64,000 nt of DNA from Dillenia suffruticosa (lineage: Eukaryota > Streptophyta > Magnoliopsida > Dilleniales > Dilleniaceae): contig JAVTVX010000015.1 of NCBI GenBank assembly GCA_033439265.1, positions 23,613,947 through 23,677,946 on the forward strand. Reading direction: 5' to 3'. Both the position numbers and the translations under genes were made by a program. This document shows positions 13,317 to 58,720 of this stretch, one piece after another. The notes beneath the pieces were generated by a model that saw only the letters and a list, made by a program, of their open reading frames with translations, was not told the origin of the DNA and did not search any database. Position 1 is the first letter of the stretch; each line of letters begins with the position of its first letter.

Positions 13317-16300
13317 GTAAGAATCTTTACATTCATCCCTCACCCACACACAAATCAGTGGCTGCTTTTCTTTTACATCAAAAGTGATTTCTTTTGTTGC
13401 CTCTGAAAAGAAATTGTGATTGACCACAAAGCCTTCACTGTTAGACTAGAGAATTGATGAAACTAGAGAATTGATGAATTCCCACGTTGCTTTCTGGCTT
13501 GTTTAAAGGGTAGTAGGAGTTTGCCCTTGTCAAAGATACTAGTGAAGATAGTAGCACTCCTGTGGTAATCAATAACAGCTCATCAAATTGTTTCTGCATC
13601 CCCAAAAGGCACAAACTAGCTACTGATCCAATAGGGGTAGCCTCGGACTATCATGTCTTCACTCTTAAGCCTAAATTCTCTATGCCATATAGATCATTGG
13701 CCTTCAGGTGGCTTGTATAAAGGCAAAGTCAAACTGCTTATTTTCCCCCTTTTTTGTTTTGAAACTATGATGCACAAAAGAAACTGAAAGATTACACATG
13801 TTAAACCATACAATGCAATCATAGGCAATACACCACAAAGCTTGGAGTTTTAACAGAAGTGTATCCATGCAAGATGGACTGGGAGACCTCACCAAATTTC
13901 GAAAGTTGAAATTTAGAAATTTGGACATTTTGTACAAGTCCCTATTCAACAAATTCAAAACTAGCTTCATTCCAATCATGATCAGGTACTTAAACAACCA
14001 GAACCACTCAGTAATCTTGGCAACGATGACTATTCATTAGGCTAACAATTGTGAGTCCAATACTTAACAATTAGTCCTCAAACCAAACACCAAACAACTT
14101 CAAACAAAACACAAGTGCACTAGGCTACACAAATATTAAACATAGTGCCCCCAAACTTGGTATCCAAAATGTTTGTTCAAGATTACTTGTTGCTACTTGT
14201 AGTGCTCATCAACTTGTTTTTGACATATAGGGAGTGGTGAGTCTCGTACCCTCATGAAAGAATTAGCTCATCATGTTTCTCAAAAGGGATCAAGATACAG
14301 ATCCTTGAAGCTGATGTTCATATACAAAAACAAAGAGAAGATGTTAGCAGATGCCCTTGGTGCCACAGATGGTATAACAATTGTATACTACCAAGATTCT
14401 TTGTCATACAAGTACCGAGGACGACTCCGAGCACAAAATATATTGGCTTCCATTTCAGCTATTTCATCAGTTTCACCCAAGGATCTTCCTCTTAGAAGGC
14501 TTAACTCACCAGAGGACGTGAAACTATTCCTTGAATCAGCGGACAAAGTTGTTCTACTCTTGGAATTTTGTGGTTGGGCTCCTACAATGCTGGCCAAATT
14601 GGAAGAAGATGCAACTGCATATGGTTTTAATATACAAGCTAGTGCAAAAGGTAGTAAGTTACACTGGGAGTAATCCTTTGTTTTGCACCTTAGATATTAA
14701 TATTTACTTTTTCTTTTGTCCTGAGGTACATTGGAATTCCATTGGTTTATATATGCTGTTAAATGACAGACGTTAATGGTAATGCATCTAGTTGTCATCT
14801 GTTACTATTTCTGTAATTGATCTATATGTTACTCATGACATGCAATGTAGATACATACGAGGACCCAAGAACCTGCAGTTCCTATGACTTGCATCTAAGT
14901 TGATGGGGAGGTCTCTACCTTGAGAATTAGAGTAGGTTTCATAAGGAGCATTACATGGACAAGTGAGCTGGAGACAGTAGGTTGACCAAATAGTCTCAAT
15001 GTAAATATTCTGTGTCTGGAGAGGAAGTTCAATGTAAAAAGGCTATGGGTCTCCCATTTTGTAAGAGGACCGCTCCTACTCCCTTCCCTGAAGCATCACA
15101 CTCAATTGTGAATAATTGAGTGAAATCCGGCATTGCCAATACCGAGGCATGAGTCATCGCGGATTGTAATGCTTTAAAAGCTTGGTTAGCTTCCATGGAC
15201 CACACAAACTTAAGCTGTCATTCTTTCCTTAGTAAATCCGTGAGAGGCTTAGCTATCTTCCCATAGTCACGAATAAACTGTCTATAGTAGCCGGTTAAAC
15301 CCAAGAATCCACAAATTTCTTTTGTGGAGTGGGGAATTGACCACTTTAGAATGCAAGCTATGTTTCTCGAATCCACTTTTACTCCATCCGAAGAGATTAC
15401 ATGGTCCAAATATTCATTGTCCCGCTTGCCAAATTAACACTTCTTCTTGTTGGCCACCAAAGAATTCGCGGCTAAGGTTCGTAGGGCGGCCTCCAAGTGT
15501 CTCAAATGTTCCTCCCAAGTGTGACTATAGACAAGAATATCATCGAAAAAGACCAAGATGAACTTCCGGAGGTAGGGTCGGAACACATCATTCATGGTTG
15601 CTTGAAAGGTGGCAGGAGCATTCATAAGCCCAAAGGGCATCACAATAAACTCATAATGGCCCGAATATGTCCGAAAGGTTGTCTTAGGGATGTTGGATTC
15701 AGTGACTCGAATTTGATGGTATTCGGATCGCAAGTCTAGTTTGGGGAAGTATCGGGCACCATGTAGTTTGTCAAGTAGCTCATAAACCACGGAATTGGAT
15801 ATTTGTCCGGTACAGTGGTCTTGTTCAGTTCCCTATAGTCTACATAAAAGCGCCAACTACCATCCTTCTTGCGGACCAGAAGCACTGGACTAGAGAAGGG
15901 GCTGGAGCTTGGTCGAATGATCCCTGCAGTTAGCATATCCACCACCAGCCTCTCAATCTCATTTTGCTGCTCATAGCTGTAGCGGTAGGGTCTGATACTA
16001 ACAGGACCACATTCTGGTTGGAAGGGAATTTGGTGATCTGTTGTGCGGCAAGGCAGAAGCTGAGTGTCTTCCATGAATACCACAGCAAAATTTGAGAGAA
16101 GGGACTGTAGAGGTTCTTGCCGGTCACAGGACAGTGACTTATCCGTGGAGTTCTGCTCACTGTCTTCTATGTTGGCCTCCCATAACCATACACCAAACTC
16201 CACTTCAGTAAGTTTTTTTAAAGCAACTAAGGAAGAAGAGGTTCGGATCAGAGCTGGGTCACCAACCAAGCACACATTCTGACCTTGCCACAAGAACTTC

Positions 16301-19300
16301 ATCGACATTGTCTGCCAGTTCACTCTTACTTCAACTAAGGTCCCCAACCATGATACTCCCAAAATGACATCAACACCTCCTAGGGGAAACAAGAAACAGT
16401 CGATTGCAATTGTGATACTCCCTATTTCTATCTGAACAGTGGAGCATACCCCTAAGGAAGCTAACCTTCTCCCATCACCAAGCCATACCCAAAAAGGGTA
16501 TGTGGTGTTCACCCTTTAACCCATTTGTTTAGCCGTAGATTCAGCGATAAAGTTATGACTGGCTCCACTATCTACCATGATTAGTAATTGTTCCTTCCCA
16601 ATGGACCCCATAAGTTTCATGGTTTTAGGATGAGAAATACCTTCTACGGAGAACATGGGAAGCTCCATCGTGGCTAGCGAAATGTCCGATTGTTGCACCA
16701 ATTCCTTTGCAGTGGCGCCTTCGCTCGAAGCTTCCTCAGTCGAAAGACCCTCATCCTCGCCTATAATGATCGTCCACAAACTCTTGTCGGGGCAATTATG
16801 GAGAGGATGGTATGGTTGTCGGCACTTGAAACGCAACCTTTGGAGTGGAGGTCCATAATTTCCTGATGGGTCAATTGACGGAAGCCGTGGTTGGGAGTTG
16901 CATGTTGTTGCAGAGGAGGGAGGAGTGAAGATGATCGTTGAGTTTGAAGAGTGTTTGGGTTTAGGGCCGTGTTAAAAGAGAAATGGTTCTGGGTTGTGGT
17001 TTTCTAGTGGAAGTGGGTGTCGGATCCTCCAGGGGTTGGGTTGGACCCGCTTCACTTTCGTGACCCGGCTGAGAAGTGGGCCCCATCGTCCTTACCCGGT
17101 AGTAGCCCCGTTATAAAGTAGCCATTCTCTCTTTCGATTTCCCGAGCAATCTTCATTGTCTGGAAGAGCGAGAGAGCTTCGTTGGAGCGAATTCAAACTC
17201 GTATCTCGTCCTTGAGACCATTAAGGAAGAGACCCAAAAGGATCGAAGAGTTCAGCCCCTTGATGAGTGCAGCCCTAGCGACGAATTCATCGATGTAAGC
17301 ATCGACCGTCCCCGATTGTTTTGTTGATGCCAGTGCTTCAAAAGGGTTCGCTGATAGGCCTCCCCCGAACTGATCAAAGAGTTCGGTTGTGAGATCGCAC
17401 CAAGAAATCGAGGGTTTCTACGCCAACATCCATTATACCCAATGAAGTGCAAAGCTATCCATGGAGAGCATGGCGACAGTGACTTTCAAATCATCCACAA
17501 CGTGATTAATGGCGAAAAATTGCTCTGCTCGTGCGACCCAAGCCGCGGGATCATGGCCATCGAAGCAAGGGTGATCCAGTTGTCGCAGCACGAAAGGTAC
17601 GTCTTCTTGAGATGGGTATCTGGGATGTGGGTGACTGTGGTTGTGGTGACTAAAACGGGAATGGACCCGATCTTGAGAGAAGGGCTTCCCAGAACGCCAT
17701 GGAGTGTGGAGGCAGAGGAACCAGCCTCCTCTCGACCATCATTTTTTTGTCGTAGCAGTGCTGTCACCAAATCTTTCAAAGAGTCAAGTTTGTCCACCTA
17801 ATGCGATGGATATTCATCTCCTCGACTATTGTCGAGACACTCTTCCCCAGATCCACAAGGTTTTTTTCAATGGATTCGAGTTTGGCGTCCATTCTGGTGT
17901 TGGTCATGGGGGAAGGGAAGAGGTTGTTTTGGGAAAATCACTAAGAGGGAGGGGTGGGGAAGAGAAGGGTAGGTCAGACCAAATTGTTAAGAAGACCGAC
18001 AAAGAAAGGCTAGATAATTGGAAGTTCAGTAGCTTCCTTCCATTGATAATATGAAGATAGAATTATAGCCAAAGAAAAGAAGAAAGAAACACTCAGTCTG
18101 CTACGGAGTAGCAAGACTGCCCGAGACTCATAAACTGAAATAATTCATCTCTACCTTCCTCTTTTCATTCTCTTCTATTTATAGCCTAATTTTACCTCTC
18201 ATATTCTCTCATAACTGCTCAAGAATCTCAACAACAAACTGTTATGCTCCAATACCATGCCTTCTGCACTGATATACCTTCAGTCCTTTAGGTTCCGCCA
18301 CCTCATCTGCTTGTTCAGCAGCTACCTCATCTGCCAAGTGTTCCTTTGATGCCACTTCATTACCCGGCCGGACATCTTCAGATTCTCTCATAACACAAGC
18401 ACCCCTTTAACATTTTGATTTCTCTCTCCTCCAATAATCATTTTTAATTAAATTTGACCTCTGGACTCAATTCCATATCTGATCTTTAAATTTGCTTACA
18501 AATTAATTGGGATTTCACAACTCATACTGGCCCAGAATTTTCATGAATGAAGCTCTGTTAGAAATTTTTGATAGAAAATATTTATGCAGGTGTAATGCAT
18601 AAGAACCTCCAATTGGCCTTGTTATCGTCTGTACTTGTCCTTCCTAATAAATTTGTTTTACTGCAAGATAAGTTATCCTTCCTTGGAAGGATTAAATTTG
18701 GATGTCCAATAGAAAAAAAATATTCTTTGCACTGACAGCATAAGAAGCTCAGTTCTAGTTGGCTTATGCTTTCTTCCTGAATTCCTAAACCTAATCCTCA
18801 TTATTATGTTATCTAGTAAGTTATCTGAACTTTGTTCCAGCAATATCATGTACCAAAATGTGTCCATAATTTGCCTATTATCATGGACATTTTTTACTCC
18901 TCACATATGGCCTTGTAACCCAAGAAACAGCTCGTTTAGAAAATTGGCTTATGCTTTGTTCCTGAATTCCAAACCTAATCCTTAATATTATTTTTTTTTG
19001 GTGATATAATCCTTAATATTATGTTATTTAGTAAATTGTATGAAACTTTGTTCCAGCAACAGCACATGAATCTTATACTTTGTTGCTGAATTTCTAAACC
19101 TAATCCTTATTTTTATGTTATTTAGAAAATTATGTGAACTTTGTTCCAGTGACATCTTGTAACAAATTTTGTCCCTAATTTGCTTATTATCGCCGACATT
19201 CCTTCTTCATATATGGCCTTGTAACTTAAGAAATGGGTGGTATAGTAAATTGTCTCCTCAGTGTCAACACTACTTTTTGTTCCTATTTGAGACCAGTTAC

Positions 19301-22300
19301 TCTTGTTTATATATACCAGGAAGTTGAGATGAGGCCAACCTTTATGTTGATTCCTGGGGGTTGTTATATAATGGGGCACATGGTGTTGCATGCTAGTATT
19401 ATTACAGAGTAATTCTTATAAGTGCCTTCTTTTGCAGGAGGTTTCTTCAGGCAAGAATCTACTCAAGAGACTAATCAAACAATTAAGTCCAGGACCAACA
19501 AAATTGAGAAGGTGGCTGGTACTTTCCTAACACATTGAAATGTGGTTAATTGGAAGTGGGGACCACCTCTTATAGATTCTAATTGCATTTTTCTTTCATT
19601 CCTTCCATATAGCGGATGACACAGAATGAGAGGCTACAGTGTGGGGTTGAACATGGGTTTGGTGGAGTCCCTTGGCTTAAGGAATTTAGCGCACCAAATG
19701 AGAGTGCTGTTCTTGAGGACCACCATGGGGCGCCGGATTCTGGGCTTTCCTGTAGTGATCAACAGTTTCTGCATTTTGAGTCTTTCTTCTCCAAGTTCAT
19801 TGCAGATGCAAGAGAGTACTACCTTCCTCTCGAAAGGCAAAGATTTGCTCTTGTGTCCGATAGATCTTTGCTACCCTCTCTGGGTGTTGAAAGTTCTAGT
19901 TCATGGTCAATAATGCTTTACTTTGCTGGATGTCCTATCTGTTCAAAGGTGTTCGAAGAACCTGAAGACATGAGAAGGCTTCTGCAGCTGCATAGTCCAC
20001 TAATTACAGAGGTATACTTTTTCTTCGGACAGCACTTTATGTTTCTCTGAGCTAGGTCCTTGTTTGAGATATATGTTGTTTGGCATCATATATTAGATTT
20101 TTTGCAAAATTTTAGCACCGCTGTAGTCAGACAGAGGGTTGGTGCTGGTATATTGGTGTGCCAATATAAAGTTGGCTAATGACTTGTGTATACATCCAAG
20201 ATATGCTACACATGGGATTCGTGCCCTCTCCTTTCGGTGGGAGTGGGGGCATGGTTGACTGATTACTAATACACATATACAAAACCTCCATTTATCTTGC
20301 ACCAGGCAAAATATTAAATTTGTGAATCGCATGGTATTTGAATTCAGATGATCCTTAACTATGCCTATGCTAATCTTATAATGAGCATGAATTTATATTA
20401 ATTTGCTGAACCGTAACAAATGCATCATGGTGTCATCCATATTTGGGTTGTAATATCACCTTCAAAGTAGATAAAAAAAAGTGTATGAGATGGTGCTGGA
20501 ACAATGAGAAAGGGTCAAGCGAATGAGACCAGAACACTGATTTAGCTCCCTCTCTGTTTCTCTGCCTTGGTTTGCTTTATTTGTTGTTCTGTTTTGTTTT
20601 TTAGTTCTTGAGAGAAAACTTATCCTCTTTTGATGTCTTATACATTCTTCAAATTTGAATGTAATCTTGGTTGAGATCAAAAGAATCTCCAAAAAAGGGG
20701 CAGGGGGAGTGTGAATAGACAACATAGAGAGGGAGAGAGGAACTGAATGAACAGAGAGAATAGAATGGGTAGAGTGGGAATAGAGACTGAGATAGGCCTT
20801 AATGAAGAAATGGTTCAATTCTTTTTTCCCCTCCATTCTTTTCCCTTAGGGTTTCTCAACTCTTTCAAACAAGGTCATCAGAAATGCATGAACTTCTTTT
20901 GTCTCAATTTCATTTATTTTATTTTTGCCTCTCCTAGCTCTTATTCTAAGGATTTTCTTTTTCATTTCTTGATAGCTTTGCTTTAAATTCTTTGTAGCTT
21001 GTAGGTGACGTAAATGGATTGGACCAGGCTATACCTGCAGATAGGCCGTCTGTAGTTCTCTTTGTAGATAGATCCTCTGAATCAGCAAAAATTAGAAGGA
21101 GGAGTGAGGAAGCTCTTCAGGCTTTTCAAGAATTAGCTTTGCACACTCAGATAGCTGGACAAAAGAACAGAAGCCAAGAGATATTCTCTGTTCACGATTA
21201 TGGAATTCCGGAGAGTAAATCTGGTCATGCCAGGACTGTAGTCCAGAAAATACCTCGTAAAGATAAGGTATCGATTATGATAATCAATGAGGATGGACCT
21301 GTTGCATTAGATAATATGGCTGCAGATTTAAAAGGTAGCTCCTTGAAAGAGGTTTTGGCACATTTGCTTGAACAGAAAAATGAAGCCAAATTAAGCTTGC
21401 TTGCTAAGGAGGCAGGGTTCCAACTTCTATCTCAGGATTTTGATGTAGCCAATACCTTAGCATCATGGCCAGAAGTTCCATCAAATAAAGTTTCAATGGA
21501 TCTGCCCGTGGAAGGCACTATTGGAAGTACTGATGATTTTGACAAGGTTGAGTTACTTGAAACCGGAAAGCTATTGACTGTAAAGCAGAAGAAAAATTTT
21601 GATTCTGATGATGCCAAATATGCTTCAGATGACAGGACGATAATCACTACCTCTACATCAAGCACACAATCAATGTCCATGGAACATGATAAGTCTCATA
21701 AGGATGACAAAATTGATGTGCTTGAAGATGTGAATGTGGAAGAAAATGTTTCTGTGGTGGCAGACAATCTGGACGACCAACAACATCATTTCCCTGTTTT
21801 TCAGGGTTCCTTTTACTTTTCTGACGGTGGCTATCTGCTACTAAAAGCTCTCTCTGCTAGTTCAAAGATTCCAAATATGATAATAATTGACCCCACTTCG
21901 CAACGACAGTATGTGTTTCCAGAAAAGATGGTTCTCAACTATTCTTCTCAAGCTGATTTTCTTTATGGCTTTGTTAATGGAAGTATTCCTCCGTATCAGC
22001 GATCTGTATCTGTAGTTCAAAGCCCAAGAGAACCTGTGCACCCTCCATTTGTGAATTTAGATTTTCATGAGGCTGATGGCATTCCTCGTGTCTCAAGTAG
22101 TACCTTTTCTGAGTTGGTCCTCGGCTATAATGATACTGACTATGATGCTCAGAAGGTTGGTCATCATTGGCAGAAAGACATACTGGTCCTCTTCACCACT
22201 AATTGGTGTGGATTTTGCCAGAGAATGGAACTGGTAGTACGTGAAGTGTTCCGGGCCTTCAAAGGCTATGCAAACTTATTACGGAGAGGATCTAGGGAAC

Positions 22301-25300
22301 AGGAAACATTTTCTGGCAGTGGTAAGTTAACATTTCTTGGTGGATTTCTATTCTCTATTTTGACTTTTGGACCCTATCATGCATGTATTTTCTTTTTGTT
22401 ATTGGATGGTTAGTTTTCTTCCATTGGTGTTTAGCAGGACTTTTATAGAGTCATTTACTTCCACAATGAACTTAGTATTGTGCTAATACAGTTGAATTAA
22501 ACCATTATCATGGTTAACATTTCATCCTTATTCTCGTTATCCATCTCTAGTATTACCCCTGTCAGATGGCCAAGCTTATCTGCACCTTTCACTGATTTTG
22601 ATCTAGAGCCTGTCCAGAAAATTTGAATTTAGGCAAGAAGTTTTGTTGATTTTGATTATTTTTTGAAGAAGGGTAATATTGTAGACATTTGATTTGGGCC
22701 TGTTGTTGATAAAATGGGGCAATCATTGGATATAGTTTGTGTTTGTCTGTGTGTGGTGGGTTCTTAGTTTGTTTCTGAAGATTGCTTTGAGGAGCCATTG
22801 TCGATAAGGGGGGAAAAAGTGTTTGAGGCAACTGTGCCAATCCAAGATCCCTTTGTGCTCTGACTCACCAAATGAGTTACAATGATTTACATCCCGCAAT
22901 TAAATTCTTGTTACTCCCATCTTTAAAGCATTTGCAGTGGGACAATTGAAGATCCACTAACACCACCAAGACAAACTTCCCGTGGGAGAAATTTGCTCAG
23001 ATGATTCTGGTTGTAGTTTTTTTTTTTGGGGGGGGGGGGAGAAACAGAGACTTTGACAGTAAAAATAATGTTGATTATTAAAGTTTTTTCTTCAATTTCT
23101 GAAAATGAATTGATGTCTAGATAGCTGCAGGAGAATTGGAGCATATGCCATGCACATGGCATTTCAATTAAGATTCTTAATGGGGAGAGGAAATTTACTG
23201 TAGGGAGTACTTTGTTGACTTTCCAAGGGTGCTGTGGTTTTGTGTTGAATGGGCCAAACCACACAGAGGTTTATGTCATGTACTATTCTTCTTCTTTGTC
23301 ATTATTTCTTTAACTTATGTTTTCTTGGTCATGCATGTATTAGTTTCCTTTTTCTATCTTGACAAACTTAAATTTCTATGATCTTTTTTTTTTTAATTTA
23401 ATTTTATTCTGGGGGAGGGGGAGGAAGAAGAAGAAAAGATTTCGATTCAATGTTGAAAATGGAAAAAGAATTATAAAGGATGATAAGACATCCTCCTAGA
23501 AAGAAATAAATGTGTACAAAACTAAATGAAAGATAGAGCATTCAACTCAAGCAAGACTCCCTGTCCCCGTGCTTCTTAAAGCATCAGGAGTCAGAAGACC
23601 AAAATGTTACCAAGAAAATACTTTAATACATGTATAAGATGTCCACATACTTTCTAAAAATTTTTATTTAACCGTGTGGGCCTAGTTAGGTTGATATTTG
23701 ATATTCTTGAATCATGCAATGATTCTCCTCGATCCTAGCTAATTTTTGTTTGTTTGTTGTAAAAAGTCTCTTTCTTTCTAGCATATTTTCTAAATTACTT
23801 TTGTATGATTTCCATGAGAAACTTCTTTCTATCAAATATAGTATGATAAGGAAAAATCAGTAGACGATGCTGGCCCCTTTTGGTGCAAAAGACCTGCAAG
23901 GAAATTGTTGGTGTACAACAGTGACATCTTAAGAGCCTCCTATTGGATGAGTCCTTGAATTTTTATTTCCTTATTATTGCTTTTCATTTTGTCCAGGTTC
24001 GGCGAGAGATGTTATCTTAAAGTTTCCAGAGATATACTTGATGGACTGTACATTGAATGACTGCAGTTTGATCCTGAATCTAATTGGTCAGGTGCGTATT
24101 TATAAAGTCCACTGCATCTACCATTGTGTAACACTGTGTTTATAAAGATTTATTACTTGTCCCTCCTTGCATGTGTATTACTTATTCTATTTTTTTTTTT
24201 TTTGCCGTTACTTCTTGGAATTGTATAATATCTCATACTAGAATATTGTGGCATTGTTATGAACCCACAGCATCTCAAGACTATGGCATGATCGTAGATG
24301 TCGATGTTGGAAATTATAGTAAAGTCTTTCCTCATTATAGTTTTCTGTAATAAGTAGCAGAGTCTTTAGACTTGTCAAGTATTTCTTTTTGTGTTGCTTT
24401 CCATATTAGTCTAGCTACAGTTTTGGGATATGATCTTTTATTTAGCGAGAATAAAGAAAGATCATAGATGAGAAAATGAGGCGAAGATTTGAGTCCCTCT
24501 AAATCTCACAGATTGTAAGGTTTTCTCTGTGTCTTAGGTACCGAAGCCTTATTATATTAATCAATATAGACCACAAGGGTAGAAGATCCCTAAATGAGAA
24601 AAAGCCAAACACTCCCTGTTTTGATTATGAAGTAATCGCCCTATAACTTGATCCCAAAACACGGACCATAAAAGACTTGTAAAATTCTGGCCAACTTGCA
24701 ACCATCCAACAAAAGTTTGAATCATATTTGAAGATGTGCCGGGAAGAAAGGGCAAATGATGTAGTTGATTGTGAGCATGATTAGAAAGCCCATGAAGCCA
24801 AACAACAAGAGACAACTGCCAGAACAGAGGAATTATCTCGCGACCTTGCAGCTTTAAAACTGGGTGGTAGCAAAGCCCATTAGTGTTAATCGAAGCTATC
24901 AAAATTGCCAAGTTAGTAGAGATATAGGGTCTGGTTATACTGATACAGGGGCTTGTGTTCAAAGGTACTCCAAGCTTGACTTACCTTAGTTCAATGGGAA
25001 AGATGATCCATGAGGGTGAACATTTCTTCCGTCCTCAATTCACTCCAGAGGAAGATAAGGTTGGGCTGGCTTCTTTTCACTCAAAGGGGGATGCCTTTTG
25101 TGGTCTTTTAAGTTAGAGCATGACAGTTCTAGCATGACATGGGGAACTTTTTGAACTTTTGCGAGAAGGGTCCATTGATGATTATCAACAGTGATTTAAA
25201 CAATTATCTGATCGTGCTAGCGCACTCACCTTGGAACAAGAAGTTGGAATACTCATAAACCATCCCCAAGACTACATTGAGTGGAAGTAGAGTTATATCG

Positions 25301-28300: not shown

Positions 28301-31300
28301 GAAATGTAATTTTTTAGGTTTAGGAGATTATTTGATGGAGCTTGTTTCTAGCTAAAGAAACTGATGTTATTGAACTTGTATGAGGACTGATGAAGAAAAT
28401 TTTGGGGACTTGATAGACAGAAATTTGTATCTGCTTCCAACTAATGAAAGCAAATGGTCAAAAAAATAAAAATAAAAAATAAAACTAGTAAATTGGCCAA
28501 GGATAACAAATCTAATGGGAAGGAATATTCAAATTTAGGACCGTTAGAAAATATGAAGCTATGCAAGTACCTTTCAAATTTACCGAAGGGTATGGAGTGA
28601 GAAAGTCTTTAGAAATTGCTGGCTTTTCATAACATGAGGGTGCATGTCAATAAAGTTTATATGTTGTGAATGATTCCTACATATTTTGGGGGTTCTGTGG
28701 TCATATGCCTTGGGATGTGATAGATAATTGTGCTAAGGGATGGGGGGGAAGATGAAATCTTGCAAGTTACTCATGAGTCTATCCCTCTGGCCTATAATTT
28801 TTTGGTTGATCAGGATGACAGTTCCTACATCTCCACAGGGCCCTCTAGGCTGCTGTGTACTTCTTGTTTAGGCTAGCTGAAGGGAAAGGATTGGTCACAT
28901 ATTTGTAGGTTCCTGAAAGTAATTTAAAATCTCATACTCTGATGATTTGTTGCTCTCTTGAGCTATTTTTATTTTTTATTGGAAAAGGATCGTATTGCTC
29001 TCAAGTGGAAATTATATAGAGTGAATTGCAGATATAAAGGAAGGAATAACAAAGTAAAAAGTTCCTAGCTGTGAATGGCTTGAACATAAGAGTTGGTGCC
29101 AAAGAACAGAATGGGAGAGTTCTCTATTTTGTGTACTTATTTGAAGAAAATTATGGTTAAACTTGATTGGAGCAATAATTAGCTTGTTTCATATCAGAAA
29201 AATTAGATGATATAAATATTGCATCATTTAGGATGTTTGAGTATTGATTTGTGGGACTGATTTAAAGCAGAAGGTTTGGACATGGGTATAATTTTATTTT
29301 CCCTTTCCTCAATAAACGAGGAGATATTAGACTTCCGAATCCTGCAATACATAATGGGATGTTAAAAAGGAAAGAAATAATAAGAAGCCTCTAGCTTATC
29401 GATTGACTTAAGAACCATATGAAGAGTTTACAACTACTATGTAGTGGGCTTGGAGAAAAAAATATGTGTGAGCTAGCTACATGAAAAATTATGTTCTTTC
29501 CTTTGGGATCCATGGCATTAGAGAAGGAGCAATGAAGATTTTGTTGGATTCATTAACTTCTTTGCCACCAGATTAATGCAGATGGTAAACATATTTCATA
29601 TACTGAATAAGTTTGATTTGCTGATGTTCCCTAATAGATAACAAGGGCAAGTAACATTCATTAACGAGTGAAATAGAATTTAGGCAACTATAAAATCCTT
29701 CCCTATGGTTTGCCCATTTGGCAACTACAACCCCTCCCCCCCCCCAAAAAAAAGAAAAAAATTATAAAACTACCAAGGAGTCCCTTGTGGTTTGCTCTTT
29801 TATCAAATTACTCCCTCTCCATCAGTTGCCCTGTTAAATATGCACATGCTGCAGACACTATGCTATTTCCCCTTCATTTGTTATCACCCCTATACCCCTA
29901 ACTCATTTTCTGTCTGACAAATTTTCTTTAATTTTTCAACTTACTTCAAAACTCTTGGTCCTAATCCATAGTCAATCACCAAGTCGACGCTATTGTGGAT
30001 TAATCAGTAGGAGAATCTAAATAAAGGACGATTAACTCAAGTGAAAATAAATTTTAATGAGTTAAGTGAGAGAGGGAGCATTTTGCTAATTAAATAAATT
30101 ACAAGGGGCTTTGTAAACAGAAAAATCACAAGGGGTACGTTGCATTCTGCTTTAGAATTTAACAATGAGCGAATCAGGGAAACATTTTCAAAATTTGTTA
30201 CATGGGCCTAATTCGAAAATACAAGTACTCTTTATGTAAATAATTTGTATTTTGCATTCAGGGCTTATGGGTAAGAAATTTAAAGGGTGAATACATGGAA
30301 TAAGTTGCCTAAGATTGTGTGGAAGGAGAGAAGAGAAATCGACAAAAGATCCATAAGAACATATTAGAGGAATAATGTACCATAGCCAACAAATAATTTC
30401 CTTCCAACTTATGTAAAGATTTTCCCATCATGAAAGAGAATAAGAAAAAGACTTACTTTTGCGAGTGATGTTCTTAGATAATCACTTTATTGTAGTTCAA
30501 GCTTTGTGCCAATAGCTGGAGCATTGGGGCATTTTCCTTTTAACTGTATGCCTCTTTTATATTTGTTCCTGCACAACTTGACATTAGAGTGCAGCACATC
30601 TGTTCAAAATAGTTATTTGAGTGCAAAATTTGTGCTTACTGAATTATTTGATTGGTGGCAGTTGGCAGCAACTTTAAGGAGTATCCCTTTTCCAGCACAT
30701 CACCTCCTGAATAATTTATCTGATGATTGCAATATCTATTCCTGAAATCATGTAATCAGCCTTCTTGTTTCTCCTGTTTTGGTAGGATTACTGTGGAATG
30801 AGGCAGAAAGCGGAGGCAAGGACACTGACCTATCTGTAGATGCATCACCAATGTCAGTTCAGGAGAAAACTTGGATTGCAGAAGACAATCACCATGAAAT
30901 CATTAGAAAGAGGAGGATCCCAAACGGAGCTGTTAGCTACCATCATACTAGATCTCAAACATCACATGGCTTGCATGAATCAGTGCCTCATGTGGTTGCT
31001 GGATCCATTCTACTTGCTACTGACAAACTTCTCAATGCACACCCTTTTGATAAATCCAGAATCCTAATAGTCAAGGCAGAAAACAATACAAGATTTGAAG
31101 GTCTAATTATCAATAAGCACATGAGTTGGGACACTCTTAATGAACTGGAAGGGCTGGAAATCCTCAGGGAGGCCCCGTTGTCCTTTGGGGGTCCAGTCAT
31201 AAGACATCAAATGCCTCTTGTGTCTTTAAGTCGGAGGTTTATACAAGATCAGTACCCAGAAGTTGTACCTGGTGTTTATTTTCTTGACCAAACCGCTACA

Positions 31301-31465
31301 ATTCATGAAATTGAAGAACTAAAATCAAGAAACCAATCTGTATCTAGCTTGTGGTTTTTTTTGGGGTACTCGGTTTGGGGTTGGGAGCAATTGTTTGATG
31401 AGATTGCTGAAGGTGCCTGGAACTTAATGAATGATAGTTCAGGATCAGCACTGGATTGGCCATGA
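13091..31465 (+). CDS. Secreted/ER thioredoxin-fold protein with C-terminal AlgH/YqgE (DUF179) domain, eight exons
   Basis: Exons 13091-13316, 14231-14653, 19438-19511, 19613-20011, 20998-22321, 23997-24091, 27714-27855 and 30786-31465 join in frame to about 1120 residues. An N-terminal signal peptide (hydrophobic [11 protein letters not shown] then an LG repeat) predicts entry to the secretory pathway. The first thioredoxin-like module carries PWSGES where WCxxC would be, so its site is cysteine-less; exon 4 has FAGCPIC; exons 5-7 form a complete thioredoxin domain with WCGFC at about 777-781 and a YPALMLFP stretch holding the likely cis-proline. Residues about 964-1095 form a DUF179/UPF0301 domain ([30 protein letters not shown]). 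This architecture matches a conserved plant family (Arabidopsis At3g19780 is the relative I recall). Its function is unknown; a redox or protein-folding role is inferred. Introns 2 and 6 carry retrotransposons, yet the frame is intact. Confidence 0.9.
13317..14230. other. Thioredoxin-gene intron 1, no element recognised
   Basis: 914 bp of AT-rich intron between donor GTAAGA and acceptor ATATAG. No coding or repeat features are seen. Confidence 0.6.
14231..14653 (+). CDS. Thioredoxin/DUF179 gene exon 2
   Basis: The acceptor ATATAG|GG restores a Trp codon, giving [14 protein letters not shown], the degenerate active-site region. Two in-phase donors are possible: GGTA|GTAAGT (edge 14653, chosen for its better consensus) and AAAG|GTAGTA (edge 14650). 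They differ by one codon. Confidence 0.85.
14654..15034. other. Start of intron 2, no element recognised
   Basis: Intron sequence between exon 2 and the truncated edge of the gypsy element. No protein similarity is recognised on either strand. Confidence 0.5.
15060..16836 (-). pseudogene. Gypsy pol remnant (zinc knuckle, protease, reverse transcriptase)
   Basis: It opens with a knuckle-like [11 protein letters not shown] (first Cys lost from the ORF start), then protease [11 protein letters not shown] (about 16550-16580), a linker, and reverse transcriptase from about 16020 to 15434 with [13 protein letters not shown] and [10 protein letters not shown] frame change near 15740-15790 and stops near 15410-15430 and 16512 break it. 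It continues to the thumb ([13 protein letters not shown]) and ends in the first part of RNase H. Confidence 0.85.
16860..17907 (-). pseudogene. Gypsy gag remnant
   Basis: It starts at an ATG complementary to 17905-17907 ([17 protein letters not shown], a chromovirus-like coiled-coil start), then breaks into at least three frames down to a Gly/Pro-rich stretch near 16900. It would encode the particle protein but is not translatable as one frame. Confidence 0.65.
17985..18412 (-). repeat. 5' LTR of the intron-2 gypsy element
   Basis: On the minus strand it begins TGTTAA and ends TTAACA, perfect 6-bp terminal inverted repeats of TG...CA type. A TATA box (TATAAATAG) lies at 18175-18183. The primer-binding site beyond 17985 (TTTGGTCTGACC) does not match the usual initiator-Met site and I could not assign its tRNA. 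Confidence 0.8.
18757..19250 (+). repeat. Intronic tandem repeat, three diverged copies
   Basis: A unit of up to ~185 bp, containing CCTGAATTCCTAAACCTAAT and TGAACTTTGTTCCAG, occurs at about 18762-18940, 18947-19066 (partial) and 19068-19250. It lies in intron 2, 200-700 bp before exon 3. No protein or known transposon is recognised. Confidence 0.7.
18976..19022. mobile_element. Micro-insertion of oligo(T)+GGTGATA with a 16-bp target duplication
   Basis: TAATCCTTAATATTAT occurs at 18976-18991 and again at 19007-19022, flanking only 15 bp (T8 GGTGATA). A perfect 16-bp duplication around an oligo(T)-ended insert fits target-primed reverse transcription that aborted almost at once. Confidence 0.6.
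19438..19511 (+). CDS. Thioredoxin/DUF179 gene exon 3
   Basis: A 74-base exon between TTTGCAG and AAG|GTGGCT, encoding [14 protein letters not shown]...NKIEK, phase 1 in and phase 0 out. It is a short polar linker. The exon is inferred from splice sites and phase. Confidence 0.75.
19613..20011 (+). CDS. Thioredoxin/DUF179 gene exon 4
   Basis: 133 codons from acceptor ATATAG|CGGATG to donor GAG|GTATAC. It contains [17 protein letters not shown], a CxxC-bearing segment that resembles a thioredoxin active site without the Trp. Confidence 0.85.
20012..20997. other. Intron 4, no element recognised
   Basis: AT-rich intron of 986 bp ending in T-rich sequence before TTTGTAG. Short reading frames here have no recognisable similarity. 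Confidence 0.55.
20998..22321 (+). CDS. Thioredoxin/DUF179 gene exon 5 (WCGFC thioredoxin site)
   Basis: The acceptor is TTTGTAG|CTTGTAGG; an alternative AG seven bases on would put TAA in frame, so the first was chosen. It encodes a second thioredoxin-like fold ([12 protein letters not shown]), a long polar linker, and the start of the canonical domain with [16 protein letters not shown]. The donor is AGTG|GTAAGT, phase 1. Confidence 0.9.
22322..23996. other. Intron 5, only homopolymer tracts
   Basis: The intron contains an oligo(T)-oligo(G) junction at about 23019-23040 and a purine-rich tract near 23410-23440. No recognisable transposon or RNA gene. Confidence 0.55.
23997..24091 (+). CDS. 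Thioredoxin/DUF179 gene exon 6
   Basis: A 95-base exon (acceptor TGTCCAG|GT, donor CAG|GTGCGT) encoding [20 protein letters not shown], the strand following the active-site helix of the third thioredoxin domain. Confidence 0.85.
24255..24663 (+). repeat. Left LTR of the intron-6 gypsy relic
   Basis: It starts about TGTTATGAAC and ends near ATAACTTGATCCC. It aligns along its length with the right copy but with many substitutions and indels, so the insertion is old. Confidence 0.55.
24950..25340 (+). pseudogene. Gypsy gag-domain fragment
   Basis: Broken plus-strand frames contain recognisable Retrotrans_gag words ([28 protein letters not shown]-like LEHDSS; DDYQQ-like [13 protein letters not shown]). 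Many stops and frameshifts. Confidence 0.6.
25722..26214 (+). repeat. Right LTR of the intron-6 gypsy relic
   Basis: Partner of the left LTR. It has an extra ~30-40 bp segment around 25950-26000 (GTCTACCTTTTATACTTAAAG). Confidence 0.55.
26225..26840. mobile_element. Foldback / MULE-like non-autonomous element
   Basis: About 240 bp at the left (26225-26460) matches the reverse complement of the right (26620-26840) with many mismatches: shared strings include AAATAT..CCTTT, TTTTAAATCA, GCACTTAA, ATGTTAGCTTTC and TTTGGATTTTGATTT. Long imperfect terminal inverted repeats with no coding capacity fit a Mutator-like foldback element. Its outer left edge touches the right LTR of the gypsy relic. No target duplication found. 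Confidence 0.5.
26904..27095 (-). mobile_element. L1-type LINE scrap in intron 6
   Basis: Minus-strand translation contains [11 protein letters not shown] and [19 protein letters not shown], matching the stretch between reverse transcriptase and the zinc-binding domain of plant L1 ORF2. Only ~190 bp is recognisable. Confidence 0.65.
27714..27855 (+). CDS. Thioredoxin/DUF179 gene exon 7
   Basis: It encodes [22 protein letters not shown]...[18 protein letters not shown] holds the likely cis-proline, and the rest is the last strand and helix of the thioredoxin fold. Acceptor CATGCAG, donor AAAG|GTACTT, phase 1. Confidence 0.88.
27856..29679. other. Left part of intron 7, little recognised
   Basis: AT-rich intron. 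One possible micro-insertion is seen near 28949-28996: TTGCTCTC flanks a T-rich segment ending GGAAAAGGATCG. Otherwise no features. Confidence 0.5.
29680..30170. mobile_element. MITE/MULE-like repeat in intron 7
   Basis: The left end (CCTTCCCTATGGTTTGCCCATTTGGCAACTA) and right end, reverse complemented (TACCCCTTGTGATTTTTCTG...ACAAAGCCCCTTGT), share the CCCCTTGTGGTTTG-type repeat typical of some plant Mutator-like elements, and the motif recurs inside (GTCCCTTGTGGTTTGCTC). The match is partial and no target duplication was found. Confidence 0.35.
30786..31465 (+). CDS. Thioredoxin/DUF179 gene exon 8 (DUF179 domain)
   Basis: The terminal exon (acceptor TTGGTAG) encodes a polar linker then the AlgH/YqgE domain: [83 protein letters not shown]. 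It ends ...SALDWP-stop. The domain is complete compared with bacterial YqgE. It has no obvious catalytic motif. Confidence 0.92.
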
Positions 31466-52829: not shown

Positions 52830-54260
52830 TGTAACAGAGAGCTAAATTTCTTATTCTTTTCCTTTTCTTGTTAGAATTCATTTGCTAATGGTTCTGTGTT
52901 AGACATATCCTTTTTATTATAGCCATTTACATTCCTTAAGTTTTCTAACTCAGTTTACAATTTAATTGTTTATTCAGTCTTATTTTTTATTGTAGCATGC
53001 AAACTATTCTTCTCTTGTTTCCGGTTATCATTTTCATTCTTTAATTTTTTTTGTCTTCTACTTTTAATTTATTTCTTTCCTCTTCCATTTCAGTTAACAA
53101 TTTTTTCAATGAGAAATTCTTTTTACTTATTTTCTTAAGATCTTTAAGAGACTCCACTAAGGCTTTATGTAATTTATTTACAAACAATTCATTATCAAAA
53201 TCAGAAAAATTAAACGAATCAAAGAAGTAGGAGCTTACCTCTTCATTCTGGTCTTCCTTCGGTACTATAACACATAAATGAGCCTACTCTTGCTCAGTTT
53301 CGTCTTACTTGAGCTACTATCCTTACCACTCTAGACTACTAGTGCCTTCTTCTTTTCTCTTTTCTCAGCCTTCTTGAGCATCAGACAATCAAATTTTATA
53401 TATCCAGCCTTCTTGCCCTTCTTGCCCTTCTTGCCTTTCTCTCTGAACTCTGTTTTCCTTTCTCATCGTAAACCTTTTAAATTTTATGATTAGGAGAGCA
53501 ATATCTTCATCAGAACTATCATCGTTATTTTCACTCTCTGATTTTAAGAGCCATGGACTTCCCTTTTTCTTCCTTTCCGTCTTTGTTTGAATTCAACTTC
53601 ATTTCGTGGGAGGTCAAAGATCCCATCGGCTGGTCCATGGCGAGGGTCTCTAAGTTCTTCGACTCCTCTATAGAAGTGACCTTCACCTTCCATGATTTTG
53701 GCATATAATTGAGAACTTCGTCCACCATGTCCTCATGACTTATTCCTTTTCATAGGAGTCTAAGTTCATTTGTAATTGTGTTGAATCTTGTGATCATCTC
53801 TTTAACTGTTTTCTCGCCCCTTATTCGAATTACGTCATACTCTTGTTTCAACATTCCGATTTTATTCTTCCTAACCTGGTTTATTCCTTCATACGTAGAT
53901 CTTAATCTCTCCCATATTTCTTTGACATTAATACATGATGAGATCCTATTGTACGAATTTGAACTTAGAGCTAAATGTAGAAGATTGACAGCCTTACAGT
54001 TAGCTCTGTATGCCTTTTTTTTTCTTCTATTATCATATTCTTCATTTTAACCGGAACTCTCACTTTGTTAATCTCTTCTATTGGGAATTTAATTCCCTCT
54101 TCAGTAATTTTCCATGTAGTTTCATCATGTGCTATGATAAAGTCCCACATCCGCTGCTTCTAATAATTATAATTGTTTTTGTTGAAAAATGGAGCTATGT
54201 TGGTAGAGCAAGCTTCAAATGGGACACCATCACCAATAGTGCCATCTTGGATCTTTACTT
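52830..54260 (-). mobile_element. Copia gag relic, opposite strand
   Basis: Minus-strand frames read as a copia UBN2-type gag: PFFNKNNYNYWKQRM-like start near 54215; AIAHDETTWKITEEGIKFP; AVNLLHLALSSNSYNRISSC...EIWERLRSTYEGINQVRKNKIGMLKQEYD; VDEVLNYMPKSWKVKVTSIEE; LTSHEMKLNS; a zinc-knuckle remnant (YIKFDCLMLKKAEKREKKK); then a coiled-coil-like tail to about 52850. No pol or LTR is found. It abuts the preceding copia element's broken end. Confidence 0.78.
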
Positions 54261-54384
54261 GTTACCGACTGGTCATCAGACCTGAGCATGCAATAATCGT
54301 CATTTGGCTCGACCTACATTCAATCTCGGGCACACACTTCAAAACCCAACAAGGCTAATCTATCATCAATATAGTCTCAATGAA

Positions 54385-54545
54385 TTAATTACATGTACAA
54401 TCCCTGAACTTTGCCAATTTCACAAATTACTCCCTAAGTTAGAAATGTTATCTTGTGGTACTCAAACTTATAAAACTGTATCGTATTGGTCTTTCTATTA
54501 TTGATGGTGATAGGGTAGTCGTTAACTTATCATTGCCATGTCAGT
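54385..54545 (+). repeat. Left terminal inverted repeat of the Pack-MULE
   Basis: Pairs with 56685-56845. Shared words: CCCTGAA, TTTCACAAATTA, AGAAATGTTA, CAAACTTATAAAAC, CGTATTGGT, GTGATA. Confidence 0.75.
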
Positions 54546-54874
54546 ACCTGAAGAGATCTCATGATGCCAGGTCAGCATTTTGTTGACGTGGCAGAGCTAG
54601 GTTGGCAATTTGCTGATGTGACATTGCTACATCAGTACCAGAAGGGCTTTCTAGTATTTCCATCACCCAAAATCAGACTTTAGGGTTTTTTTTTAACATT
54701 TCTCAAAAGGAAGAACCCTTTTGTTTTCTTTATGGTCAGAAGATTAAATTCAATCTCTCTCACCGTCTCAATCTGGTCAGAAGTTTATGGTCTAAAGATT
54801 TCTCTTACACTTTCAATCTCTTTCTTGATCTCTCTCTCTTTAAAAGTTTAGGGTTTTGAAATGGAAGACTGGTT

Positions 54875-55295
54875 CTGGAATAGAAGGTCCATCTGTTCCC
54901 GCAAGATCCAAGTCGGAATCAGGTACAAAGCAGGTCTCCACCTTCCTATGGTCTCTTTTTACCGAATCATCTCGTTGTAGGTTGCATGTTGCTTTCACTT
55001 GCAATGTTTGTGGTCAGTGAACAACTTGTGCCATCAATTTGTCTTTGTATAGATATTTTCTGAAAAGTTTGCCCTTAATTGTTCATCTCTCTCTCTATTT
55101 TTTTTTTTAAATTTTGATTGATTTATTTATTATAGAGTCATGGATGCAATCCATTCCATAAGTTAGTTGATAATTTGAATCAGTTTCACGAGATGAAGTG
55201 TTATGTGAATTTACGCTTACAAGAATGGAGATGTTAACTTCAAGTATCTCGACATGGATGATGATGACAGTGATGATATTTTTCCGATCTTTTGA
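54875..55295 (+). pseudogene. Captured fragment of a Zim17/DNL-type zinc-finger protein gene
   Basis: Zim17 proteins bind zinc with two CxxC pairs and escort organellar Hsp70. Here exon 1 (about 54875-55050) ends AFTCNVCGQ then an in-frame TGA (55018) and TTCAIN where TTRAIN is expected. A T-rich intron with acceptor TATTATAG follows, and exon 2 (55136-55295) reads SHGCNPFHKLVDNLNQFHEM, KCYVN, then after a one-frame shift GDVNFKYLDMDDDDSDDIFPIF-stop, the acidic C-terminus of plant members. The first Cys of the second pair reads Ser. Stop, shift and lost Cys make it a pseudogene. Confidence 0.8.
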
Positions 55296-55850
55296 GGTTA
55301 ATAGGAGCTTGTATATTCCAATTACTTTCATCTTGATCTTTATCACATCCCTTGGGCTTTTCTTGGGTTAATTCCCTTCGATGACTATCTCCCTTCTTCC
55401 TTAATCAATCAATCTTTCTCTCTTTTCTCTTTGCCCTTGGGCTTTTCTTTTCTATTCTAGATCTCTTCTCTCTAATTTCGATCGATCTATATTAGTTATC
55501 TCTCTTTTGTGAACAGAGTGGCAGAGTAGCCCTGGTCAATCGCGATCAAGACAGATAAACAAGAGAGATTGATTAATTTATGGCATCTCTATGTTATGGT
55601 AGATCAATCATGCAAGAGAACAAATTGAAAGAAGAGATAGAGTGGACACAGTTGATCTTGATTAAGAGAGAAAAAAAATGATCAATAGATAGAGAGTAAA
55701 AAGAAGAGGAGAGATTGATAGATGAGAGAGAGTAGAGATTGGGAGAGGAGAGAGAGAGGTTGGGGTATTCTACATATTTCACATGCGGATACATTCGTCA
55801 TTTCTGGTAGAATTAATATTGTTTATCTATTCCCAAAAAATTCACCATAG

Positions 55851-56048
55851 TTGCAGGAACTTCAGAAGTTTGGATTTACGTTCACATGGTTTCATCATTC
55901 TCCCAGAAAACGTCCATGGCACTTGATTCTCACGAGTGCAATGCAATCTCCTATTTCTTTGCAAGATGGCGAACTTTCATCAAGGCCTAGACAATACCTC
56001 TTCCAGACGCCATCATCAACAAAATATAATGCTCCATTTACATTATGA
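55851..56048 (+). pseudogene. Possible second captured exon in the Pack-MULE
   Basis: After an acceptor-like TAGTTGCAG, an open stretch reads LQKFGFTFTWFHHSPRKRPWHL in one frame. It is less AT-rich than its surroundings and looks exon-like, but I do not recognise the protein in any frame or strand. Confidence 0.3.
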
Positions 56049-56684
56049 ATAATTATTTCAAAGAAGATATTTATTTATTCTTTTTAATTTGAATTTAGAT
56101 GCCAAAAAATATATATAACTGAAAATTTCAGAAAGTAAATTGGAAAGTCATTTCTTTTTATTCAAACATATTCGAAAAAATATTTTTCTGGGAAAGGTGG
56201 TTTCTGGAAAACGAAGAGAGCCTAGAGGAAACATTCAAGAAGGGATAATGGGTTTTGGTTTTGGTTGTGGTTGGGGGTTTGGGTTTTTTTTCTTTTTTTT
56301 TTTTTTTGGGACAAGGAAGGTGGGTTTTTTCCTAGGGGAGGGGTGTTGATTTTGGGTTTAGCCATAGTTTGGGTTTCCGATGAGGAGGAATGGATTCGGA
56401 GCGGCGATATTCATGCTAAGGAAAAGTAGAGAGAGAGAGAGAGTGGCATGGTGGAGTAATAAAGAAGAGAGATTATAAATTTATAGGGAAGCATGGAAAG
56501 ACCAAAATCCCAAAAAACAAACCAAACTTGCTTACATGGCAGTGCCATGTCAGTGATTAATGCCACATCATCAATTAAACAGCTTGGTACTGCCACGTTA
56601 GCAATATGTTAATATGGCAACTTGAGATGTTTCGGGTGCTCAAATGGCACTGATATATCAGCGTCCATACATCTACCTAAACTG

Positions 56685-56845
56685 TCACGTCATTCCATGT
56701 CAGTTTTTAACAACCACCATATCACTGTTAGTAATGGAAAAACCAATACGAAATGGTTTTATAAGTTTGAGAATGGTAACATTTCTAGTTATAGAGACTA
56801 ATTTGTGAAATTTGAAAAAAATTCAGGGACTGGATATATAATTAA
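56685..56845 (-). repeat. Right terminal inverted repeat of the Pack-MULE
   Basis: Partner of 54385-54545; identity looks high but with several indels. Confidence 0.75.
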
Positions 56846-56849
56846 CTAT

Positions 56850-58165
56850 AATCTAAATTTTCAATTAATTCTCTATATTCATAAATCATTATCCATAAGA
56901 GCTCTTTCAAAATGAAATAAATAAAGTTTCAATAACTTTAATACAAGTGATCAACCAAAATAAGAATGTACATATACAAAAGTAATAAAAATTCTACAAG
57001 CAATCCACAATAAAATAAAGTTCAACTTCTATTAACCTTCCCCATAGATCCATTTACAACTAAGCAAGCCAAAACGGAACTATTTCACACAAAGTATATG
57101 ACTCCTACTAAGGTAGATATCACAATCACAAAAGAGGGTCCTCTATTTGCACTTACAAGCTACAAATATGAAAATATGAGAGAAAAAGAATGGGATTACA
57201 ATCGTAATTAGTGAGTGAAAAATCTATATACATGTTGATGAGTGGGAGTGTGATTATATTCTAAATCCATTATCAACAAATTTTATTTTTATTATTTCAA
57301 AAATATTCACAAATTTACAAAGGTACTCATAAAGTATTGATAACCAATGTATTCAAATAAGAATATTTCTCTTTGCATCAAAATGGGTTGCATTTCATTC
57401 AAAACCATGGAACTACTAAAAATATATTTTCCAATCTAAAACTTTGGCCGAGTTCAAGATTTGAATCCACCAAAAGTTTTTATTCATTTGATTATCTAAA
57501 AATGTCTCATCTTTGGTGACTCATGGCTGCCTAACCCTAAACTTGGATAGGCGAACCCCCCACATCATACTATCACAATCTAGTATTCGGCTCTACTCTA
57601 CTGCTTTTACTCCAACCAATCATGAGTGAGCAATAAACTATAGAGTTGTGTGAACAATTGGTCACCTTAAAACATCTTTTTCGTTCACAATTAAATTCCA
57701 AAACCATTTCACAACCTATATTCATCTTTGTCTCAATGAACATCAATCAACCAAATAATGTAAATCATATAGTATTAATATATCAATTTCACATTTCTAA
57801 TATCACCGTTTTAAGAGAACATACTACATTCAAATTGAATTATAAAATCACTTTTTAAAAATAAATTTTCAAACACATAAAATCATTTCTCATTAAAACA
57901 AGATACAAAAATCATATTCACTGTTTGGGGAGAGTGCGCATTCCCACTAGTTCAAATTCTCAAATCTATCCTTGATTGAAGGAGTTTCGCCTAAATTTTA
58001 TATAAATCACAACAAAAAAATTAAGATTAGATATTTATTCAACGCAACATGAAATTAAACACATGATGGTGCAAATGAAAAATATATTTCTATTACTTTG
58101 GTATCTATTAATTCTACTTAACACCCATTTCCATTTCAAATTTTACAATTCCAACCAATATTATA
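56850..58165 (-). mobile_element. Diverged LTR fragment, same family as the insertion at 47393-50252
   Basis: The reverse complement aligns with about 48780-50000 of that insertion: GGGAATTTAT..GATTGGTT, CAAGGATA, GAACTAGTGGGAATGC and CTCTCCCCAAAC, ACACTCCCAC and others. Divergence is high and neither end is intact; the Pack-MULE abuts its left edge. Confidence 0.6.
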
Positions 58166-58176
58166 GATTTCCAACT

Positions 58177-58720
58177 CACTACAAAATTAAAAAATTATCT
58201 TGACGGCAACATTTATTGTTGGTAAGTTTTACTTACGTTTTTTTGAAACTATATAGACTATTGTGGTTTAAATAGTCAGAAATACTATGTATTTTTCTAC
58301 AGTTTTAAAATGGTCGTCAACAAAAGTTTTTCAACTGTGGCTAAAGATCGCATAGCGTTTGTATAAACAATATTTTATACTTACGGATATAAACACATCT
58401 GTATTTATAATACTGTATACTTACGGCTATAACTTATATCATCGCTAAATATTGGTTTTGTAGGGATGAATTGAAAGGCTTCTGTATAAGTAATACCCTA
58501 TCCTTACGGCTATAACTTGTGATCACTAAATATAGGTTTTTGTAGTCACGATTTGAAAGTCATATGTATAAACAATGTTATATCCTTACCGTTATAACTT
58601 GTGATCACTAAATATAGGCTAAATATAGGTTTTGTAGTCACAATTTGAAAGGCATTTGTATATGTATCAGCAATGCTCTATCGTTGCAATTTTGATCAAT
58701 TATTTGAACACTCTCTCTAT
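58177..58720 (+). mobile_element. CACTA-like transposon end with subterminal repeats
   Basis: CACTACAAAA at 58177-58186 is the classic terminal motif of CACTA elements. It is followed by about four diverged tandem copies of an ~80-bp unit (TTACGGCTATAACTTGTGAT, CACTAAATATAGGTTTTGTAG) at 58380-58685, as in subterminal arrays. The opposite end and transposase are not found. Confidence 0.45.
58421..58685 (+). repeat. ~80-bp tandem repeat, about three copies
   Basis: Units start near 58421, 58500 and 58575, each with CTTAC.G.TATAACTT, CTAAATAT.GGTTTTGTAG and ATTTGAAAG. Likely the subterminal repeats of the CACTA-like end. Confidence 0.75.

Follow-up and report, generated by a model that had tools for sequence, protein, structure and literature searches.

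Pack-MULEs were reportedly described by Jiang et al. in 2004. The available extracts of PMC3310237, PMC8903248 and PMC4858842 deal with Pack-MULEs of rice, Arabidopsis, maize and tomato; rice alone is credited with more than 3000 of them, and in most Oryza species ∼5-10% of the MULE-derived putative genes come from at least two parental genes (PMC4858842). Compared with the elements in these extracts, the one described here belongs to another host lineage (Dillenia), its copies are strongly decayed, and its captured pieces are an exon-intron-exon stretch of a Zim17/DNL zinc-finger gene and antisense DNA from a carboxypeptidase intron. PM-ZIBP, a tomato Pack-MULE family with a piece of a zinc-ion-binding gene and tandem terminal inverted repeats (TIRs), was likewise amplified with a zinc-protein piece (extract of PMC3310237); its tandem TIRs seem to be paralleled in the copy of the present element on contig C21, where positions 8053-8684 of locus L009 seemingly hold two right TIRs in tandem, whereas the copy in our window has single TIRs. 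As for the captured gene, plant Tim15/Zim17 genes are known from Arabidopsis as Tim15-1/ZR1, Tim15-2/ZR3 and Tim15-3/ZR2 (extract of PMC9695410); the two parental genes in Dillenia, on C17 and C20, match zf-DNL, whereas the piece in the element starts partway into the gene and its frame is not open. Among the literature matches listed for Pack-MULEs and Mutator-like elements no paper named Dillenia, which is no proof of absence, and among those listed for the Dillenia turbinata genome none named that species.

The window, i.e. the whole stretch of 64,000 nucleotides of Dillenia suffruticosa DNA that was analyzed, had been read in an earlier note as holding a probable Pack-MULE of the Mutator superfamily. 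Our analysis bears out this reading, including the superfamily, by means of a 10-bp target-site duplication, the TIRs, a MuDR-like family end, the captured pieces and sibling elements: judged from its sequence, 54382-56848 is a chimeric Pack-MULE. This non-autonomous Mutator-like element is 2467 bp long, its ends being set from sibling elements and empty sites. Its interior derives largely from pieces of host genes and contains neither a transposase nor an open reading frame of at least 110 aa; none of the 43 stop-to-stop ORFs of at least 110 aa in the 64-kb window overlaps it. Elsewhere in the window, exon-like ORFs at 20998-22413 and 30746-31465, with a thioredoxin-like match that stays below its cut-off and an AlgH-like (DUF179) match that exceeds it, perhaps form one long gene, and ORFs that look retroelement-like by eye lie near them at 15434-16971.

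A target-site duplication of 9-11 bp, with up to two mismatches accepted, is a mark of MULEs (extract of PMC3310237). The earlier note had found none, and in this respect it is superseded. The element is flanked by TAGTCTCAAT on the left (54372..54381) and TAATCTAAAT on the right (56849..56858), i.e. by a 10-bp duplication in which two of the ten bases differ, each copy being one base away from the consensus TAATCTCAAT. Among nearby 10-mer pairs a match of 8/10 arises in 109 of 109,443, i.e. a chance of ∼1e-3 for the pair alone. The duplication is proved by empty sites, which we found by searching the genome for the flanking repeat (best 40 of 1362 candidates scored) and fetching ten of the 18 listed places whose match to the left flank stops at window 54381. 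In all ten the flanks are joined around a single 10-bp target with the consensus TAATCTCAAT, five of the targets having exactly this sequence and the other five being off by one or two bases. This result shows that the element entered as a single 2467-bp unit and that its TIRs belong together and do not come from two unrelated elements, the very objection that the earlier note had raised against itself. Sibling elements have 10-bp duplications in the same register, with matches of 10/10 in L025 and 9/10 in both L021 and L029. A 9-bp register (AATTAATTA/AATTAACTA) was also considered and gave way to the 10-bp register, since L025 sets the latter and the empty sites prove it. The insertion locus is a repeat of ∼1.45 kb (window 54260-58183, element excluded) with more than 30 places listed, possibly an LTR; the C21 copy has a T-rich flank at its target site.

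The TIRs seen in the earlier note are real, although their outer ends now lie at 54382 and 56848. Aligned from 54385-54525 to the reverse complement of 56707-56845 they are 76% identical over 144 columns (blastn E 9e-23), with an alignment score of 119, whereas 1000 first-order Markov randomizations reached 31 at most. The left TIR occupies 54382..54525 (plus strand), and the right TIR (56707-56848) together with its subterminal part occupies 56561..56848 (minus strand); a second, subterminal inverted pair (54528-54625 and 56559-56655) is 72% alike. MULE TIRs are typically 100-500 bp long, and at least 80% identity was required for the TIR library in that work (extract of PMC3310237); the TIRs here are long in this sense, at ∼140 bp, with 76% identity. 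In the left TIR the family end, read by eye, is GAGATAATTACATGTCC and the window copy has GAATTAATTACATG. Within the family end (by eye GAGATAATTACATG), GAGATAATT equals the first nine bases of the MuDR TIR primer GAGATAATTGCC (extract of PMC2563033), and such a MuDR-like terminal sequence is a supporting feature of MULEs; the element's own ends, GAATTAATT and TAGTTAATT, have drifted from it. The TIR has matches at many places in the genome (best 40 of 130 candidates scored). Inside the left TIR lies a subterminal region (54526..54860, plus strand), parts of which are common to the siblings L020, L022, L023, L024, L027 and L028 in the blast map.

The earlier note had claimed a captured Zim17/DNL gene piece, and all the features on which it relied are present, i.e. 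FTCNVCGQ, a T-rich intron, FHKLVDNLNQFHEMKCYV and IFPIF-stop, spread over three different frames. What did not stand is the extent of the zinc-finger exon, which does not end at CGQ but runs on to 55052 with a CGA>TGA change, a 22-bp deletion and a CAG>TAG change. In alignment with the C17 (L011) and C20 (L012) genes, the piece at 54861-55343 (plus strand) begins midway through exon 2, includes intron 2 and exon 3 and ends within the 3'UTR: the second part of the zinc-finger exon is at 54861..55052, the intron at 55053..55135, the last exon, with a frame-shifting 5-bp deletion, at 55136..55295, and the start of the 3'UTR at 55296..55343, where the C17 match stops at 55343 and the C20 match at 55341. 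The exon numbers follow a three-exon reading of the gene, whose first part may hold one more intron. The acceptor AG of the intron is kept, and the donor GT has become AT in the window copy only, of the three copies aligned. A two-codon deletion beside the donor, suggested by protein alignments, was dropped, as the genomic alignment shows these codons to be present and mutated.

A first protein search gave no candidate, and the short exon pieces had no match in Pfam or PDB. When the query was joined from the three frames, plant DNL-type zinc finger proteins were matched with a best E of 8.5e-33 (53/53 candidates, E up to 10), and 97% of the query aligned to the best of these proteins with 60-61% identity; the same query had no match in PDB or NCBIfam and matched zf-DNL at E 0.1, below its cut-off. 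The intron junction recurs in relatives, since the predicted proteins P0027, P0031, P0033 and others run into the intron at this junction and P0047, P0048, P0051, P0052 and P0053 run out of it. With three frames, a stop and the 22-bp and 5-bp deletions, the piece is not a functional Zim17/DNL gene; nor does it have the removed introns of a retroposed pseudogene, because the intron is kept at its parental place. The retention of the intron, with the same junction as in the C17 and C20 genes, supports capture at the DNA level, as the earlier note had argued.

Two host loci match 54861-55343, on C17 (81%) and on C20 (79%), both from 54861 onward, and both are Zim17 genes with open frames and the same exon-intron junctions as the element. 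The alignment to the host's own Zim17-type genes that the earlier note had proposed as a check therefore supplies the parental genes whose absence would have counted against it. In the C17 gene both exon ORFs match zf-DNL, one of them with a score above the cut-off and the other with a lower one; the match of the C20 gene exceeds the cut-off. The named proteins closest to these genes are two DNL-type zinc finger proteins from Dillenia turbinata, and the one nearest to C17 has four mismatches over the last two exons. The C20 gene (L012 2981-3499, minus strand) is open, and several otherwise conserved residues are changed in it, e.g. INRHAY for INPHAY; these departures suggest that constraint on it may have been relaxed.

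The window element captured at least one other piece besides that of Zim17. From 55361 to ∼56240 the interior is antisense DNA (minus strand) of the last intron of a serine carboxypeptidase (Peptidase_S10) gene, a placement made from Pfam matches in the flanking exons and from reading the ORFs; the nearest source is on C35 (L014), and a paralogue on C13 (L013) matches the same interval less well. The next segment, the 3' subterminal segment 3 (56242..56560, plus strand), was considered as a third captured gene. This was rejected, since segment 3 adjoins the right TIR in elements with other interiors (L015-L018 and L031) and is therefore treated as family sequence, although it may be an older capture.

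Other copies with the same TIRs and different interiors, which the earlier note had suggested looking for, were found in L025, L021, L029 and the L015-type elements. L025, L021 and L029 have only end regions in common with the window element, whereas the L015 interior is found together with segment 3, whole or in part, at four places, on C24, C10, C19 and C31 (∼C24:6750058-6752203 for L015 itself, C10:12652275, C19:4671646 and C31:19139609). A piece of this interior is 90% identical to a place on C5 (C5:4646163) and 88% identical to one on C2 (C2:1429243); these source places have open frames of 229 and 272 codons respectively, with the VQ family above the cut-off. One TIR family thus has differing captured interiors, which by the earlier note's own test makes it a Pack-MULE family. 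The L015-type interior also carries a piece similar to C10:12803753, and L029 1621-1821 gives a weak match to TAXi_N (E 5e-4), which does not reach the Pfam cut-off. ORFs tried from the sibling interiors of L021 (one), L025 (two) and L031 (two) gave no Pfam match.

Besides the window element, full-interior copies of the chimera are present on C21 (L009) and C12 (L010), both with the same order of pieces, and a partial copy is present on C26 (L019). The C21 copy has a 3.9-kb insert in its 3' part, inside segment 3; in the C12 copy the right TIR gives a weak match (50 bits) with the outer end absent. About 2 kb from the C12 copy lies a second, truncated element (L010 6741-7337), which has the left TIR in common with it and, of the Zim17 piece, the first 53 bp. 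The 22-bp deletion, which in the C17 gene is flanked by a CCG repeat, and the 5-bp deletion, which is flanked by TT, both shift the frame, and both are common to all three full-interior copies found, so that the Zim17 piece was non-coding before these copies parted. The earlier description of a captured Zim17 gene thus holds for the piece, but its frame was broken before the full copies diverged and it is not the sole capture. Over 422 columns with parental agreement, of 454 compared, the three copies share 5 substitutions and have 25 (window), 28 (C21) and 16 (C12) private ones, the partial C26 copy being left out of these counts and of the trees. The shared deletions, together with few shared and many private substitutions, suggest that the copies parted soon after capture.

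The Zim17 pieces of the copies differ from one another by 13-15%, yet remain recognizable. In an unrooted Zim17 tree the C17 and C20 genes group together (99% support), apart from the copies, of which that on C12 is nearest to them (78). The tree of segment 2, the carboxypeptidase piece, has supports of 45 and 50 and leaves the order of branching unresolved; by K2P distance each copy is somewhat nearer to C35 (0.127, 0.128 and 0.163) than to C13 (0.165, 0.173 and 0.185). As the genes and the copies decay at different rates and the tree has no outgroup, we give no date for the capture.

Most of the changes in the window copy are of one kind: at positions where the parental genes agree, 31 of its 46 differences are C>T or G>A, compared with 26/46 in the C21 copy and 13/34 in the C12 copy (L010), whose Zim17 piece is less decayed in this way. 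With the parental state standing in for the ancestor, and with related copies that are not independent, 31 of 181 G/C sites in the window copy have changed as against 3 of 261 A/T sites in the other direction (p 3e-10), and the changes fall on 21/67 CG+CHG sites as against 10/114 CHH sites (p 2e-4). The corresponding counts are 20/65 and 6/109 in C21 and 10/67 and 3/112 in C12; in the short C26 piece they are 5/25 and 4/44, a difference that is not significant. The CG/CHG bias suggests past methylation of the element.

Could the locus instead be a processed pseudogene, or a gene copy in decay, that happens to be bracketed by two unrelated inverted repeats? The broken Zim17 frame, and the fact that no target duplication was noticed when the sequence was first read, would fit such an origin, but it is refuted by the retained intron and by the empty sites, in which ends and interior are seen to have arrived as one 2467-bp insertion, and the same chimera is found on two other contigs; we give it next to no probability. 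Equally negligible is the view that the captured Zim17 piece has been kept by selection as a coding exon. The 60-61% identity that the joined pieces still show to proteins could be taken as a sign of constraint, but the two frame-shifting deletions are common to the three full-interior copies, the window copy has an additional stop and has lost its donor site, and no long ORF overlaps the element. It is very improbable that we are dealing with a Pack-TYPE element of another superfamily (CACTA, hAT, Mariner or PIF) or with a Helitron, given the 10-bp duplication, TIRs of ∼140 bp and a MuDR-like family end. Helitrons are not known to make a target duplication. That Pack-TYPE elements are found in all the main TIR superfamilies would speak for this alternative, but the duplications given are 5 nt long in CACTA and 8 nt long in hAT elements, with TA in most Mariner and TTA/TAA in many PIF elements (extract of PMC8903248).

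We consider the Pack-MULE account as a whole, i.e. double capture at the DNA level, frame break, copying, probable methylation and decay, to be almost certainly correct. In this history an ancestral element of the TIR family took up the Zim17 exon-intron-exon stretch and the carboxypeptidase intron piece as DNA, as the source loci, the retained intron and the junctions show, and two small deletions, which the three full-interior copies share, broke the Zim17 frame during or shortly after the capture. The chimera then moved as a unit to several contigs, as is shown by the copies, the 10-bp duplication and the empty sites, presumably through a MULE transposase acting in trans, and landed, at the window site, in a copy of the genomic repeat. 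MULE transposase domains are abundant in the genome (best 150 of 737 candidates scored), and none was tied to the TIR family when the places of these 150 were compared by eye with those of the best 40 of 130 TIR candidates. Thereafter the element was probably methylated and decayed by C-to-T changes, the CG/CHG bias of which is observed. Any role that it still has would be that of a source of small RNAs; otherwise it would be a neutral relic.

The broken frame means that Zim17 protein can no longer come from the element, and any present function would have to be sought at the RNA level. The window copy has exact runs of 39, 27 and 22 nt in common with the C17 gene and of 31 nt with the C20 gene, so that the parents could be targets of small RNAs, and small-RNA effects on parental genes have been reported in maize (extract of PMC13317346). 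That the element is not inert, in that small RNAs from its TIR transcripts affect the parental Zim17 genes, would agree with these runs and with the past methylation suggested by the CG/CHG decay; both parental genes are still open, however, and diverge from the window piece by 13-15%, and we think it unlikely. More doubtful still is the specific proposal that 21-24-nt RNAs are still made from the Zim17 piece in copies of the family and that they adjust, in trans, both parental genes for organelle-import chaperones.

As a Pack-MULE the element is well proved and belongs to a familiar class; the case is clear but ordinary. Its value is that a Pack-MULE family in Dillenia is documented with its source genes, shared capture scars, siblings and empty sites in one genome, and that the captured gene is that of an organelle-import co-chaperone. 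As the copies remain recognizable despite their 13-15% divergence, they are useful for timing the capture relative to gene duplication. If trans-acting RNAs were produced after all, the chimera would connect the expression of Zim17 with that of the carboxypeptidase by way of a single transposon family.
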